Source: Roseiflexus sp. | Lineage (GTDB): Bacteria; Chloroflexota; Chloroflexia; Chloroflexales; Roseiflexaceae | Length of the DNA: 64,000 nucleotides | Direction: 5' to 3' | Assembly (NCBI GenBank): GCA_017743475.1 | Contig: JAGHYV010000001.1 | Span: 1 to 64,000 of the forward strand | Part shown: one piece after another, positions 58,335 through 64,000 of the stretch | Numbering within the stretch: the stretch's first letter is position 1 | Layout of the letters: each line of letters opens with the position of its first letter | The notes under the pieces: model-generated | The model's input: the letters and a program-made list of their open reading frames with translations, nothing else | What the model was told of the DNA's origin: nothing | The model's database searches: none | Position numbers and translations under genes: made by a program

Positions 58335-59051
58335 TTATACCAGCGCCCGCACCACTTCGATCCCGTTCATTGCCATATGGTGCAGGAACAGCACGTGGTG
58401 CAGATCGCCATCGTGCGCCTTGATATGCAGTTCGCGCGCCGTCGATACCGGTGTGTCGAACGTATCCACCGCATTGGCAGGTACAATGACACGTCGCCGG
58501 ATGCCGTGCGCATTCGCCTCCAGGCGCAGATGCATCGCGCCCTGATAGGTACAGAGATCGGTGCAATCGCCAACAACGATGAACCGATCAATCTGCGGGC
58601 GGGCGGCGATCCAGGCGCCCAGACCGGTGCCGATCATCGAACTAATCGAGTTCTTGGGAAAAACAGCAATATCGCCAAAGAACGGCAGCGCCTTCAACTC
58701 TTCGACGGTATCGCTCTCGGCGCTGCCAGCGATGCAGTGCGGCGGATATGCTTCGAACTCCGGCGTCTGCGGATCGTGGGCGTCCTGCGTCAACGCAAAG
58801 TTGCGCACCCCCAGCGCATAGGCATGCCTGAGCAGATCGGCGACCGGGCGCACAATCTGACCCACGCGCTCGCTCGCCAGCGGACCGCTCTTGCAGAAGC
58901 CGTTAATGACATCGATCGACAGCACGGCGACACGTTCGGGTTCACCGGCGACAACGTCCGCCAGCGGTATATCCTGTAACGCGCCGAACCACTCATCGAG
59001 ATACGCCAGGAATGGACGTGCGTGGTCAGCCAGGTTCATCCGGGCAGTCAT
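58335..59051 (-). CDS. Nicotinamidase-like isochorismatase-family hydrolase
   Basis: 238 aa from the ATG at 59051, which has gaggagg 5 nt upstream. The Asp-Lys-Cys catalytic triad of the family is present: D47 in VLSIDVINGFC, the lysine of VFPKNSIS and the cysteine of GDCTDLCTYQGAM. FALTQDAHDPQTPEFEAYPPHCIAGSAES resembles the nicotinamidase metal and substrate region. The gene 68 bp upstream encodes an NrtR-like NAD regulator, which favours nicotinamide to nicotinate conversion in NAD salvage over other isochorismatase-type activities. Confidence 0.85.
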   Translation of the reverse strand: MTARMNLADHARPFLAYLDEWFGALQDIPLADVVAGEPERVAVLSIDVINGFCKSGPLASERVGQIVRPVADLLRHAYALGVRNFALTQDAHDPQTPEFEAYPPHCIAGSAESDTVEELKALPFFGDIAVFPKNSISSMIGTGLGAWIAARPQIDRFIVVGDCTDLCTYQGAMHLRLEANAHGIRRRVIVPANAVDTFDTPVSTARELHIKAHDGDLHHVLFLHHMAMNGIEVVRALV

Positions 59052-59119
59052 AGGTTCCTCCTCAGGACGATGCACGTTTGCCGGGCTGCGGAGTGCACCC
59101 GGCGCAAACCGGTTCCATC

Positions 59120-59878
59120 TCACGACGACGGATGATGTTCCTGCGAATCATCTGCGTCGATGCGCGCCTCGCGCCAGCGGAAAACGAACTGCCCGTCGCC
59201 GCGATCACGGCGGAAGCGATAGAGCCGCGTCGGGCGACCGCGCCCCTCACGTAGCAGACCGGTCTCCTCCAGCACGCCGGCGTCTTTAATTTTACGATAG
59301 AAATTGCCTTTGTCCAGTTTTTCACCGAAAATTTGTTCGTAGATGTGTTTCAATTCCAGGATCGAAAAGACTTCCGGCAGCAGTTCAAACGCCAGGGTAG
59401 TATACTCCAGTTTTGAGCGCAACCGCGCCAGCGCTGTCGCCAGAATGCGGTCGTGGTCGAAGGCAAGCGGCGACGGAATCTCACGCACCGGGAACCAGCG
59501 CACATCAAGGCTTTCATCCGACACCCGCAGACGCTGCCGGTCGGCGCGAACCAGGGCAAAATAGGCGACACTGATCACCCGCGTGCGCGGATCGCGATCC
59601 GGATCGCCAAAGGTATACAACTGCTCGATATAGATGTCGCGCACCCCGGTTTCTTCTTCGAGTTCACGACGCGCAGCGTCCTCAAGCGACTCATGCATCT
59701 GCACAAAGCCGCCGGGGATCGCCCAGAACCCTTCGTAGGGCCAGCGTTTGCGCCGCACCAGCAGAACATGGAGTTCGCGGTCGATCAGGGTGAAGATCAC
59801 CACATCAACGGTGACGGAGGGGCGTTCGTAGCGCGCGGGGTCGTAGGTTTCGGCGGTTTCGTCAGTTGTGTCTGCCAT
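59120..59878 (-). CDS. nrtR: Nudix/winged-helix protein, NrtR-like regulator of NAD metabolism
   Basis: 252 aa. Residues about 20-150 are a Nudix domain with an intact Nudix box GGFVQMHESLEDAARRELEEETGV (about 56-79). Residues about 155-235 form a winged helix (LELKHIYEQIFGEKLDKGNFYRKIKDAGVLEETGLLREGRGRPTRLYRF), the NrtR arrangement in which ADP-ribose or NAD derivatives are sensed. It probably represses the nicotinamidase gene downstream. The complete Nudix box means some ADP-ribose pyrophosphatase activity may remain. Start supported by ttgaggtg 5 nt upstream. Confidence 0.87.
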   Translation of the reverse strand: MADTTDETAETYDPARYERPSVTVDVVIFTLIDRELHVLLVRRKRWPYEGFWAIPGGFVQMHESLEDAARRELEEETGVRDIYIEQLYTFGDPDRDPRTRVISVAYFALVRADRQRLRVSDESLDVRWFPVREIPSPLAFDHDRILATALARLRSKLEYTTLAFELLPEVFSILELKHIYEQIFGEKLDKGNFYRKIKDAGVLEETGLLREGRGRPTRLYRFRRDRGDGQFVFRWREARIDADDSQEHHPSS

Positions 59879-59995: not shown

Positions 59996-60070
59996 GCGGG
60001 AGTGGCGCAACGGTAGCGCATCTGCTTCCCAAGCAGAGGGCTGCGGGTTCGAATCCCGTCTCCCGCTCCA
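59996..60070 (+). tRNA. tRNA-Gly (anticodon CCC)
   Basis: Acceptor GCGGGAG/CTCCCGC, anticodon stem TCTGC/GCAGA around TTCCCAA (CCC), T arm CGGGTTCGAATCCCG, encoded CCA. The acceptor and T arms are identical to those of tRNA-Gly(GCC) at 24.8 kb. Confidence 0.97.
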
Positions 60071-60381: not shown

Positions 60382-60831
60382 GGTTCTCCTCCCTTCCGTG
60401 ACGCCTGAGGGATTATTCCCTCGCTTGCAGCATACCGCGTCTGCGCCCCGTGCAACCTGCGACCTGGATGAGGAGTTGCCTGCGTTCTGGCATCGTGTTG
60501 TTCAGGGAAAGGAAGCACGCGGCTCACCAGAGGCTCACCGCTCGTCGTCGGATGGCGCCCTCTGTTTGTAGACGGGTAGACAGGCGCTAAAAATGGTGTA
60601 TAGTAGGCATATGCGCAATCTGCAAACCGCTCAGGAGCGTCTTCGCAGCTATGCCGCAGGTCTGACATCGACAGGTATGTGTTCACATTTCTCCTGGGAG
60701 CAAAGGCATCTTGCCCTTGTAGATGCACCAGGGTGGGATACTCTCGCTACCTGGCGCGTGTAGTATCTCAGGTGTGAACAGGTACGTCGGCAGGAGTTGC
60801 TTCGGGCGGAAATGAATGAGGGAGACGCACA
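60382..60831. other. 450-bp region before the radical SAM/SPASM gene, with a candidate promoter and leader ORF
   Basis: TAGACA (60577-60582), 16-bp spacer and TATAGT (60599-60604) form a plausible plus-strand promoter. It is followed at 60611-60763 by a 50-codon ORF (MRNLQTAQERLRSYAAGLTS...) without a ribosome site. Its second half runs through a degenerate copy of the dispersed cctgggagcaaaggcatcttgccc repeat. I do not call it a gene, but it is the only candidate leader or precursor ORF next to the maturase. Confidence 0.4.
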
Positions 60832-62394
60832 ATGAACAATGCTGTCGTTGCACCGATCCGCTCAACGCCGGTGATCCTGTGCGCGATGGATTTGGAGTCG
60901 CACATGGCGAATGCGGTCGAGACCGACTGTTTCGCGCTGCCGGAGACCGATTGCGCATGCCCGACCGACTGCGCTTCTCCACCGCTCACCGCCGACATCG
61001 ATCCGACGATTGCGTATGCCCTGCCGATGCTCCACACCGATGCCCTCCCAGGGGGATGGGTGCTGGCGTTCAACCCGCAAGGCGCTGCGGGCGTGGTCGT
61101 GCTCGATCGGGCGGCGTGGATGCTGCTCAGTCGGTTCCGCCAGCCCCGACGGCTGGTTGATGCCGCGAGTGAGGGCGATGACTTCTGGATGGTTCATCGC
61201 GGAGTGCTGCGCCTTGCCGGGTTGGGATTGATCCAGCGCGTTGATCGACCGTCAGGCGTCCGGCGCAGAGCATCCGAGACGCTGACCGCCTGGCTGCACA
61301 TAACGAATGCATGCAACCTGCGCTGCGACTACTGCTACATCAACAAGACGCCTGACTCAATGGATGAGGCGCGTGGACGGCAGGCGATTGATGCGGTGAT
61401 CCGCTCTGCTGTGGCGCACCGGTTTCGGCGGGTAAAACTGAAGTATGCCGGCGGCGAGGCAACCCTTAACCTGCCTCTTGTCATTGTGCTGCATCAGTAT
61501 GCGCGCGATTGCGTAGCGCAGCATAATCTTGCCCTCGATGGAGTGGTGCTCAGCAATGGTGTGGCACTCGGCGACCGCCAGATCCGTCAGATCCGCGACA
61601 GCGGGTTGCGCTTGATGATCTCGCTCGACGGCATCGGTGATCTGCACGATGCGCAACGGCGGTTCGTCAATGGACGCGGCTCGTTTGCCCACGTGGCGCG
61701 GACGCTCGACCGGCTGGCGCAGCATGGCGTGGTACCGTCACTCTCGATCACCCTGTCGCGCCGCAATCTCGCCGGACTTGCTGAAACAGTCGCGTATGCG
61801 CTAGATCGGAAGTTGCCGTTCTCGCTGAATTTTTACCGCGCGAATGACTATGCCGCCGCCTATGCCGACCTTGCATTCGACGAGGAGGAGATCATTGCGG
61901 CGATGAAAGCGGCATTTGCCGTGATCGAACAGCGCCTGCCGCCGTACCGTCTCTTCGACGCCCTGCTCGATCTGGTGCGGTTCGATGCACCGCACGACCA
62001 TTCCTGTGGTGTCGGCAGCTCGTATATGGTCATCGACCAGCGCGGCAGGGTGGCGAAGTGTCACATGGAGATCGAGCGCACGGTGACCGACGTTGATGCG
62101 CCTGATCCACTACGCCTGATCCGCGAAGACGCCACCGGCATTCAATACATTCCGGTTGACGCAAAGGAGGGGTGCCGGACATGCACATGGCGCTCCTGGT
62201 GTGCTGGTGGCTGTCCGGCGTTGACGTATCGCGTAACGGGGCGCTTCGATGTCCGGTCACCGAACTGTCGCATCTACCAGGCGCTCTTTCCCGAAGTGCT
62301 GCGGCTGGAGGGGTTGCGTTTGCTGCAGTACGCAGGCGGGAGTTGCCTCGAAGCGCCGGAAGCGAACACGGATTGGCACGGATATGAGAGATAA
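60832..62394 (+). CDS. Radical SAM/SPASM peptide-maturase-like protein with Cys-rich N-terminus
   Basis: 520 aa; start supported by gagggag 7 nt upstream. Residues 30-50 are cysteine-rich (ETDCFALPETDCACPTDCAS). About 60-145 may be a PqqD/RRE-like recognition domain (GGWVLAFNPQGAAGVVVLDRAAWMLLSRF). The radical SAM domain has CNLRCDYC (C161/C165/C168), KLKYAGGEATL and LMISLDGIGDLHDAQR. The SPASM domain has CGVGSSYMVIDQRGRVAKC and GCRTCTWRSWCAGGCPALTY..SPNC, for two auxiliary Fe-S clusters. Proteins of this layout modify ribosomal peptides or enzyme subunits. No substrate gene is certain nearby. Confidence 0.87.
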   Translation: MNNAVVAPIRSTPVILCAMDLESHMANAVETDCFALPETDCACPTDCASPPLTADIDPTIAYALPMLHTDALPGGWVLAFNPQGAAGVVVLDRAAWMLLSRFRQPRRLVDAASEGDDFWMVHRGVLRLAGLGLIQRVDRPSGVRRRASETLTAWLHITNACNLRCDYCYINKTPDSMDEARGRQAIDAVIRSAVAHRFRRVKLKYAGGEATLNLPLVIVLHQYARDCVAQHNLALDGVVLSNGVALGDRQIRQIRDSGLRLMISLDGIGDLHDAQRRFVNGRGSFAHVARTLDRLAQHGVVPSLSITLSRRNLAGLAETVAYALDRKLPFSLNFYRANDYAAAYADLAFDEEEIIAAMKAAFAVIEQRLPPYRLFDALLDLVRFDAPHDHSCGVGSSYMVIDQRGRVAKCHMEIERTVTDVDAPDPLRLIREDATGIQYIPVDAKEGCRTCTWRSWCAGGCPALTYRVTGRFDVRSPNCRIYQALFPEVLRLEGLRLLQYAGGSCLEAPEANTDWHGYER

Positions 62395-62399
62395 GCACG

Positions 62400-62640
62400 G
62401 ATGAAGGTTGGTCTGAAAGAGCCCGCGTAGGCGGGCGTTGCCTTGCCTAGCCGAGGGCATATGGTCATAATCCAGTATAGCCCGCGCAGGCGGGCTTCGC
62501 CTTGCCTAGCCGAGGGCTTCAGCCCGACGGCTAGCGCGGTATAGCGGATTTATTCCTCAATCTATAGCGGATTTATTTCTCGATCTCCATTAGCCCGACG
62601 GCTAGCGCAGTATACTCCATCAGCCCCACATTGCGTCCGA
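62400..62640. repeat. Repeat cluster (GCCCGCGCAGGCGGGC / GAGGGCTTCAGCCC family)
   Basis: Two copies of gcccgcg(t/c)aggcgggc(g/t)t(t/c)gccttgcctagccgagggc (62408 and 62479) are reverse complements of the elements at 27396-27600. tatagcggattTATT and gcccgacggctagcgc(g/a)gtata follow as further repeated units. The cluster fills the spacer between convergent genes. Confidence 0.75.
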
Positions 62641-62646
62641 CGGATG

Positions 62647-64000
62647 TTATTCAATCAGCAACGCACGACGTTCGAGGAGATCGCGCATCGCCGACCTGCC
62701 TACCGGATAGTCATGCTCAAAAGTGCGTACCGCCTGCGCGACGATGTCTAGTTCTTCGGCGCTCAAATCCTTCAGCCGGTTATACACGCTATCCTGTCCC
62801 CGCAACCCGCCTGGATCGCTGAGAGTGTGATAATGGGGATCACTGGTCATGTACACCCGATCATACTCGAATGCCAGCGCGTAGTGACGGACTGCATAGC
62901 GCAAACAATCATCGACCGTCCGAAAATCCGCAGATCTTTCATCGACGAACGACGCAGCGATCCTGGCATACTCCTGTGCGACATCTTTCGCGTTTCCCGC
63001 TGACCGGTCGGGACGCTGATAATGGGCGAAGAGGCGGTGGCCGATCAACATATGGATGCGCGCAAGCTGGTTGAACACCTGGGGATTCTGGATGCTCCGG
63101 TCTCTGGAAACTGGTATCCTATGACGGGTGATCAGATAGTGATCGGGGATCGCTTCACGTGCTGCGACCAGACCCTTCTCGATGATCTCCAGCCGTTCTC
63201 CGTTAGAACCGGCGTAGGCGATATTGACCCAGGCGTCCACCTGACGGAAGACATTGTTGGTCTGGCGTGCAAGGTCGGCGGCGCGTTCCAGCGCCTGCAC
63301 ACTCTGCTGCAGCAGCGTGTCGAGATCGTCTTTTAGCGACAACGGATGATCGCGCTTTATCCTGATGAGATCGCGCAGCGCATGTCCTTTTTCGATCAGC
63401 GATTCGATCTGGCGCGAACGATCACCTATCGCTGCGAAGCGTTCATAGGCAGCATGCGCATAGTCGTGCGCCTCGCGCAGAATCTGTATCCGTTCGGCGG
63501 GATCATCGTCGCGCCTCACCGACCGGCGCAGCACCTCGGCAAGGTTCCGCAGCGCCAGCCCCTGTCCCAGGCGGTACTCGACCGCCTGGAATAATCGCAG
63601 CGCACGCTCGGCATTGACCTGTGCAAGCGTGTAATTGCCAGCATAGACAAGGACGAGTGAGAGGGTGGCGTAACTTAAGCCGATCAATGCAGGTGCACCC
63701 AGTTTCTTGCGGATCGCAAGACTTTCCTCGACCAGCCTCTGGCCATCGGCAAAGCTTCCTTCCTCGCTCTCGACAAATCCGAGATTGTTCAGCGTCCATG
63801 CCAGACAGATCGGCACATCGACCTGTCTCCAGCGAGCAGCGGCACGACGGTAGGCGTCGATTGCCGGACGTACCTGCCCGCGCACCCGTAACCCGAATCC
63901 GCGGGCATGGTGCGCCAGCGCCAGCAGATTTCTGGCGTGCCAGCGTCGCACCTCTGATTTATCAGAAATGATTGGGCTCAGGATCTGTTCGGCTGTATCC
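62647..64000 (-). CDS. TPR-repeat protein, 5' part beyond the window
   Basis: The frame stays open to the window edge (the track's start at 63951 is only an internal GTG; upstream codons read DTAEQILSPIISDKSE), so the gene is partial. Several tetratricopeptide-like repeats are visible (ARGFGLRVRGQVRPAIDAYRRAAARWRQ, TLNNLGFVESEEGSFADGQRLVEESLAIRKKLG, SYATLSLVLVYAGNYTLAQVNAERALRLFQA, LRNLAEVLRRS). A helical C-terminal region contains HYALAFEYDRVYM. Such C-terminal TPR arrays are common in large STAND/AAA-type regulators, but the N-terminal domain cannot be seen. Confidence 0.8.
   Translation of the reverse strand, partial: DTAEQILSPIISDKSEVRRWHARNLLALAHHARGFGLRVRGQVRPAIDAYRRAAARWRQVDVPICLAWTLNNLGFVESEEGSFADGQRLVEESLAIRKKLGAPALIGLSYATLSLVLVYAGNYTLAQVNAERALRLFQAVEYRLGQGLALRNLAEVLRRSVRRDDDPAERIQILREAHDYAHAAYERFAAIGDRSRQIESLIEKGHALRDLIRIKRDHPLSLKDDLDTLLQQSVQALERAADLARQTNNVFRQVDAWVNIAYAGSNGERLEIIEKGLVAAREAIPDHYLITRHRIPVSRDRSIQNPQVFNQLARIHMLIGHRLFAHYQRPDRSAGNAKDVAQEYARIAASFVDERSADFRTVDDCLRYAVRHYALAFEYDRVYMTSDPHYHTLSDPGGLRGQDSVYNRLKDLSAEELDIVAQAVRTFEHDYPVGRSAMRDLLERRALLIE

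Follow-up and report, generated by a model that had tools for sequence, protein, structure and literature searches.

The window analysed here, a 64,000-nucleotide stretch of Roseiflexus sp. DNA (contig JAGHYV010000001.1, positions 1–64,000), encodes a 520-residue radical S-adenosylmethionine (SAM)/SPASM enzyme (60832–62394, plus strand; homologues in 52 loci). Its N terminus carries a Cys-rich tail resembling the core of a ribosomally synthesized and post-translationally modified peptide (RiPP). This conserved core-like tail is fused to a maturase of the RRE-SPASM type (RRE, RiPP recognition element), its acidic-Cys motif is kept among homologues, and the gene lies beside a STAND-type NTPase with tetratricopeptide repeats (TPRs). 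Judged from sequence, there is about an even chance that the tail is the enzyme's own substrate, modified in cis or in trans within a dimer. The locus is best read as resembling the FxSxx/FxsB conflict systems: a STAND-NTPase neighbourhood of the conflict type in which the maturase brings a core-like tail of its own.

A conserved acidic-Cys motif in a variable tail

The reading frame opens at an ATG at 60832, 8 nt after a ribosome-binding-site-like GAGGGA (60818–60823, plus strand) that was read directly. A leader-like stretch (residues 13–21, PVILCAMDL; 60868–60894), marked by a predicted short strand and a conserved L16, precedes the Cys-rich core-like tail, ETDCFALPETDCACPTDC (residues 30–47; 60919–60972; residues 30–49 read ETDCFALPETDCACPTDCAS), in which residues 40–43 form a DCAC motif (60949–60960). 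The rest of the chain comprises an RRE-like winged-helix region (residues about 64–136; 61021–61239), the CxxxCxxC motif of the radical SAM cluster (residues 161–168; 61312–61335) and a seven-Cys SPASM region (residues 392–479; 62005–62268), all on the plus strand. These are the parts that a sequence-only reading of the window had described: an open reading frame (ORF) with a Cys-rich N-terminal segment, an RRE-sized region and a complete radical SAM/SPASM enzyme.

A first set of homologues, obtained by scanning contigs, consisted of 11 relatives from Chloroflexota and Actinomycetota, which together with the window enzyme gave a 12-sequence alignment. In it the CxxxCxxC motif is invariant, the SPASM Cys columns are invariant or nearly so, and no eighth conserved Cys occurs just upstream of the seven-Cys set. 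The enzyme has both the radical SAM CxxxCxxC and the seven-Cys SPASM of an RRE-SPASM maturase. Its Pfam matches are of the radical SAM type only, including PF04055, with no borosin α-N-methyltransferase domain. A wider set comprised 52 homologous loci from Chloroflexota and some Actinomycetota. In a whole-genome search at E ≤ 1e-80, members of the subfamily turned up in 43 of the 400 Chloroflexota genomes and in 20 of 224 genera; the subfamily is rare in Actinomycetota (1 of 395 genomes in one class sample, 3 of 251 in one family sample), where all the genomes found were already in the set of relatives.

Residues D40, C41 and C43 are invariant in all 12 aligned sequences, and the tail around them differs in length and sequence. 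The [DE]CxC form is present in 39 of the 52 tails, whereas 500 shuffles that kept tail composition averaged 1.15 and never exceeded 5. For [DE]C the count is 51 of the 52 tails, compared with an average of 21.8 and at most 32 after shuffling. Cys accounts for 4.5% of tail residues versus 0.8% of the RRE-like region, and L16 is the commonest residue at its position in 79% of the 52 sequences. The invariance of the three residues, together with motif counts above those of the shuffles, argues that the Cys segment is more than a product of chance. Alignment of homologues, a check proposed in the sequence-only reading, found the segment retained, and sequence comparison confirmed the acidic-Cys motif as an island conserved beyond chance in a freely varying tail.

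The number of motif copies per protein ranges from one to four and the total number of tail cysteines from 1 to 9; on a quick tree of the radical SAM–SPASM part, the copy classes of zero, one and two or more require at least 12 changes. Roseiflexus relatives carry tandem tail units, such as ETNCFSSA-ETDCFISP-ETDCACPV, and such repetition with varying copy number can be likened to multi-core precursors. The modules are of the NDC form in one clade and of the NEC/DEC form in a second, drawn largely from family f24. When the window gene is compared with a 90%-identical relative, the 17 codons of residues 28–44 show 1 amino-acid change and the 19 codons of residues 45–63 show 7.

Individual homologues depart from this layout. 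The gene at L057:2974–4566 (minus strand) encodes four DCAC modules, of which two fall in the linker that joins the RRE-like domain to the radical SAM domain. Apparent frameshifts occur in L052, after the leader-like strand and before the Cys tail, and in L059, near the start of the RRE-like region; in both, which were used as they stand, the missing part can be read in another frame, and the shifts could be sequencing errors, pseudogenes or real.

Structures of the window enzyme and one homologue (L010) were predicted with AlphaFold2 from 12-sequence alignments. Both models place a short N-terminal strand (residues 15–17 in the window enzyme, 12–14 in L010; block predicted local distance difference test score (pLDDT) 72–75) before a disordered Cys tail, a β-β-β-α-α-α unit and the radical SAM barrel. 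The closest solved fold is that of CteB, followed by TigE, SkfB and ChlB, and the RRE-like region is delimited by the order of elements in the two models and the fold match to CteB.

Search for a separate precursor

All ORFs of at least 20 aa at the 52 loci were scanned for the acidic-Cys motif. No stand-alone motif gene was found near any of them: the 13 matches comprised 12 ORFs overlapping large ORFs and one 25-codon ORF 5.4 kb away. A motif scan of the partner genes at the same loci gave no conserved match. The enzyme's own genome was searched with the DNA pattern coding for DCAC, and all 58 exact matches were read; none lies in a small gene with a plausible start and ribosome site. The only small ORFs preceded by a ribosome-site-like sequence among these matches are in L136, inside a 155-codon open frame containing GDCACWGGIPA, which we take to resemble a hydrogenase small subunit.

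Directly upstream of the enzyme, a small ORF (60593–60763) spans 56 codons, or 50 from an internal ATG. In the closest relative, L050, it is interrupted by a stop codon (TGG to TAG), and the differences between the two sequences are mostly amino-acid-changing, which together indicate that it is not a conserved gene; it was rejected as a precursor. The sequence-only reading had listed this weak 50-codon ORF and had reported no separate precursor with a ribosome site adjacent to the enzyme. The ORF exists, without conservation as a gene, and the wider search likewise found no motif-bearing precursor beside the enzyme. The search for short ORFs with the CxC pattern, also suggested there, yielded no motif-bearing substrate gene for the subfamily.

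Substrate tail, metal ligand or regulatory arm

A fusion of leader, core and enzyme is the most economical reading. A module number that ranges from one to four would be surprising in a purely metal-binding or structural tail, whereas a substrate tail might show it. This variation between sequences is an argument for a substrate tail and not a demonstration of one. The N-terminal strand (residues about 13–21) would be a leader within the same chain that docks on the RRE-like domain (about 64–136). The core would be the predicted disordered tail (residues 30–47), which in homologues carries one to four acidic-Cys modules. A tail Cys would enter the active site next to auxiliary cluster I (Aux I) and become cross-linked, within one chain or between the two chains of a dimer, a thioether being the likeliest link. 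We infer both the docking of the leader and the thioether chemistry. The open Aux I site of CteB is ligated by a Cys of its substrate (PMC6231123), and PapB links Cys to a downstream Asp. As PapB failed on a transposed, Asp-first motif (PMC9413430), the Asp before Cys in the tail need not be the link partner.

The idea of a maturase carrying its own substrate-like segment came from the sequence-only reading. The fused Cys segment is borne out, and its motif is conserved; modification of the tail, modification by this enzyme and release of a product are putative steps. The segment is kept among homologues and no substrate gene was found, two outcomes that support a maturase with its own substrate-like segment.

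Several observations weigh against self-modification. No modification of the tail has been observed. The precursor search covered one motif, near the loci and in the enzyme's own genome, and a motif-less or distant substrate would escape it. The confidence of the AlphaFold2 models is modest (mean pLDDT 64.7 and 67.5), and their output leaves the pairing partner of the N-terminal strand unspecified. Neither Pfam nor NCBIfam has a match in the RRE-like region, so that the RRE label rests on the predicted element order and the CteB match. The CxC form is missing in 13 loci, 12 of which retain [DE]C and one of which (L059) is frameshifted, and four loci (L072, L075, L077 and L080) retain a single NDC module. 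A conserved dedicated protease or exporter was not seen in the neighbourhoods, which were scanned for the Cys motif and not with FxSxx or peptidase profiles.

The strongest rival holds that the tail cysteines are permanent ligands, which complete an open auxiliary Fe–S site, bind another metal or form a redox sensor gating the enzyme. Metals are commonly bound by CxC, the SPASM region is limited to the seven-Cys set, and Aux I of CteB is filled by a Cys that comes from outside the enzyme (PMC6231123); a single NDC module, such as the one in L080 with its one Cys, would be enough for one ligand. A permanent ligand fits poorly, however, with modules that vary from one to four and tail cysteines from 1 to 9, with the loss of CxC in 12 unbroken loci and with the predicted disorder of the tail, and we consider it possible but doubtful. 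The tail could also be a recognition or regulatory arm, the true substrate being supplied in trans as a motif-less peptide or as the STAND-NTPase-TPR protein. The precursors of known RRE-SPASM maturases are separate from the enzyme, and in nearly every locus a STAND-TPR gene lies next to the maturase gene, but no motif-bearing candidate emerged near the 52 loci or at the 58 own-genome matches and the partner genes gave no conserved motif match, which leaves a substrate in trans unlikely. That most of the tail varies in sequence and length, and that L052 and L059 are frameshifted in this region, would suit a neutral extension or a start-site artefact; the protection of residues 28–44 against change, [DE]CxC and [DE]C counts far above shuffled expectation and ribosome-site-like sequences before the upstream starts in several loci make such an origin highly improbable.

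STAND-NTPase neighbourhood and known systems

The gene paired with the enzyme encodes an AAA_16/STAND-type NTPase with TPRs, of which the C-terminal part lies in the window (62647–64000, minus strand); the 1081-aa gene runs on to contig base 65892. Proteins of this type, about 800–1500 aa long, are encoded in 49 of the 52 loci, some copies being cut by contig ends. Three loci lack one: L006 and L058, which stop close to contig edges, and L081, an exception. The partner gene is directly upstream and co-directional in most loci and convergent in the Roseiflexus-type group that includes the window. The sequence-only reading had called the enzyme a candidate self-contained peptide-modification system and had missed the STAND-NTPase/TPR partner from 62647 onward; the substrate-like segment stands, and the label 'self-contained' falls short, as the enzyme is one member of a STAND-NTPase system of several genes.

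In L061 (3335–7201), the partner carries a Peripla_BP_4 sugar-binding-type (periplasmic-binding-protein-like) domain before the TPRs, which may hint that its sensor part is exchangeable. Short direct repeats lie between the convergent window genes (62420–62614): two 39-nt copies of 92% identity, starting at 62420 and 62479, and two pairs of 23-nt copies. Further genes vary by locus. Some loci contain a wHTH-NTPase and NTPases weakly similar to the Sll1717 and DS41_1 anti-phage models; a TIR_2-NTPase family occurs in five (two scanned); Actinomycetota members have TIR-NTPase, STAND-TPR and radical SAM genes in a row; and SIR2-TIR, PNP-SIR2, EAD7-CHAT and CHAT proteins are found in subsets. CHAT-domain NTPases, one with EAD7, are encoded directly upstream of the STAND-TPR/radical SAM pair in L063 (12848–15628, minus strand) and L066 (858–3299, plus strand) and are candidate effectors or tail-cutting proteases.

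In the window, a tRNA-Gly (CCC) gene (59996–60070) lies upstream of the radical SAM region. Beyond it, at 58335–59878, inspection of the ORF list by eye identified a minus-strand cysteine-hydrolase/nicotinamidase-like ORF beside a Nudix-type ORF. The two may belong to NAD metabolism, which is of interest given the TIR or SIR2 genes at many related loci.

Gene order alone suggests, tentatively, a signalling role for the modified tail toward the STAND switch and effectors. The tail, still attached or cut free, would be read by the STAND-NTPase-TPR protein as a licensing or alarm signal, and this reading would restrain or trigger TIR, SIR2, nucleoside phosphorylase or CHAT protease effectors, depending on the locus. 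In its fullest form, which we regard as speculative, no earlier radical SAM enzyme of the RiPP type would have carried its own core in the same chain, the self-cross-linking tail would license the STAND-NTPase-TPR switch, and the system would fire once the modification was lost or changed, as might happen if an infection upset SAM, redox state or translation. Such a system could represent a new type of circuit for defence or cell death in bacteria.

The enzyme matches many NCBIfam maturase models, but it scores far under the cut-offs of all NCBIfam families considered. The best match is the PapB ranthipeptide maturase model NF047865 (129.4 bits against a cut-off of 340; 134.7 bits for the homologue in L009), and scores for the SCIFF maturase model TIGR03974 (94.2 against 425) and the FxsB model TIGR04269 (56.8 against 370) are lower. 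A PADLOC match to viperin (pVip, E 1.3e-12) was taken as likeness of the radical SAM domain only, because the enzyme also has SPASM and an N-terminal RRE-like region. No known PADLOC defence system was recognized at the locus, the NTPases on the window side giving no match beyond E 0.008; effector-type PADLOC matches (ThsB-like TIR) occur at other loci.

CteB (PDB 5WHY, 5WGG), an RRE-SPASM thioether maturase, resembles the window enzyme in its radical SAM barrel and its SPASM domain with the same seven-Cys set, and its N-terminal RRE-type unit has a predicted counterpart there, but its substrate CteA is a separate peptide, whereas the candidate substrate here is fused. PapA is likewise separate from PapB, which acts on Cys and Asp/Glu (PMC9413430). 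A search of the open literature, which omits most subscription journals, found no precursor fused to a radical SAM maturase.

Borosins share with the window enzyme the placement of a core or core-like segment and an enzyme in one chain, although their enzyme is a methyltransferase and the present one a radical SAM protein. The borosin core is at the opposite end of the chain from the tail described here. In types I–III (OphMA and relatives), the enzyme acts on the core iteratively across a dimer (PMC8429565). If the tail is a substrate, the window enzyme would be a radical SAM counterpart of the borosins, providing a one-gene system for Cys cross-linking and for an open Aux I site with a tethered substrate.

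FxSxx-COOH peptides occur with the radical SAM–SPASM enzyme FxsB, an AP-ATPase-TPR protein and a TIR-bearing ATPase (Kaur et al. 2020, PMC7159879). The present loci have the same kinds of partner: the radical SAM–SPASM enzyme is accompanied by an NTPase with TPRs and, in some loci, by NTPases bearing TIR domains. Through the tight pairing with a STAND-NTPase-TPR protein and varied effectors, the association of modified peptides with immune-like switches known from FxSxx systems would reach into Chloroflexota, and the role of a modified peptide there becomes a testable question. The FxSxx peptide is encoded by a separate gene accompanied by a zincin (metallo)peptidase, whereas the candidate peptide here is fused to its enzyme.
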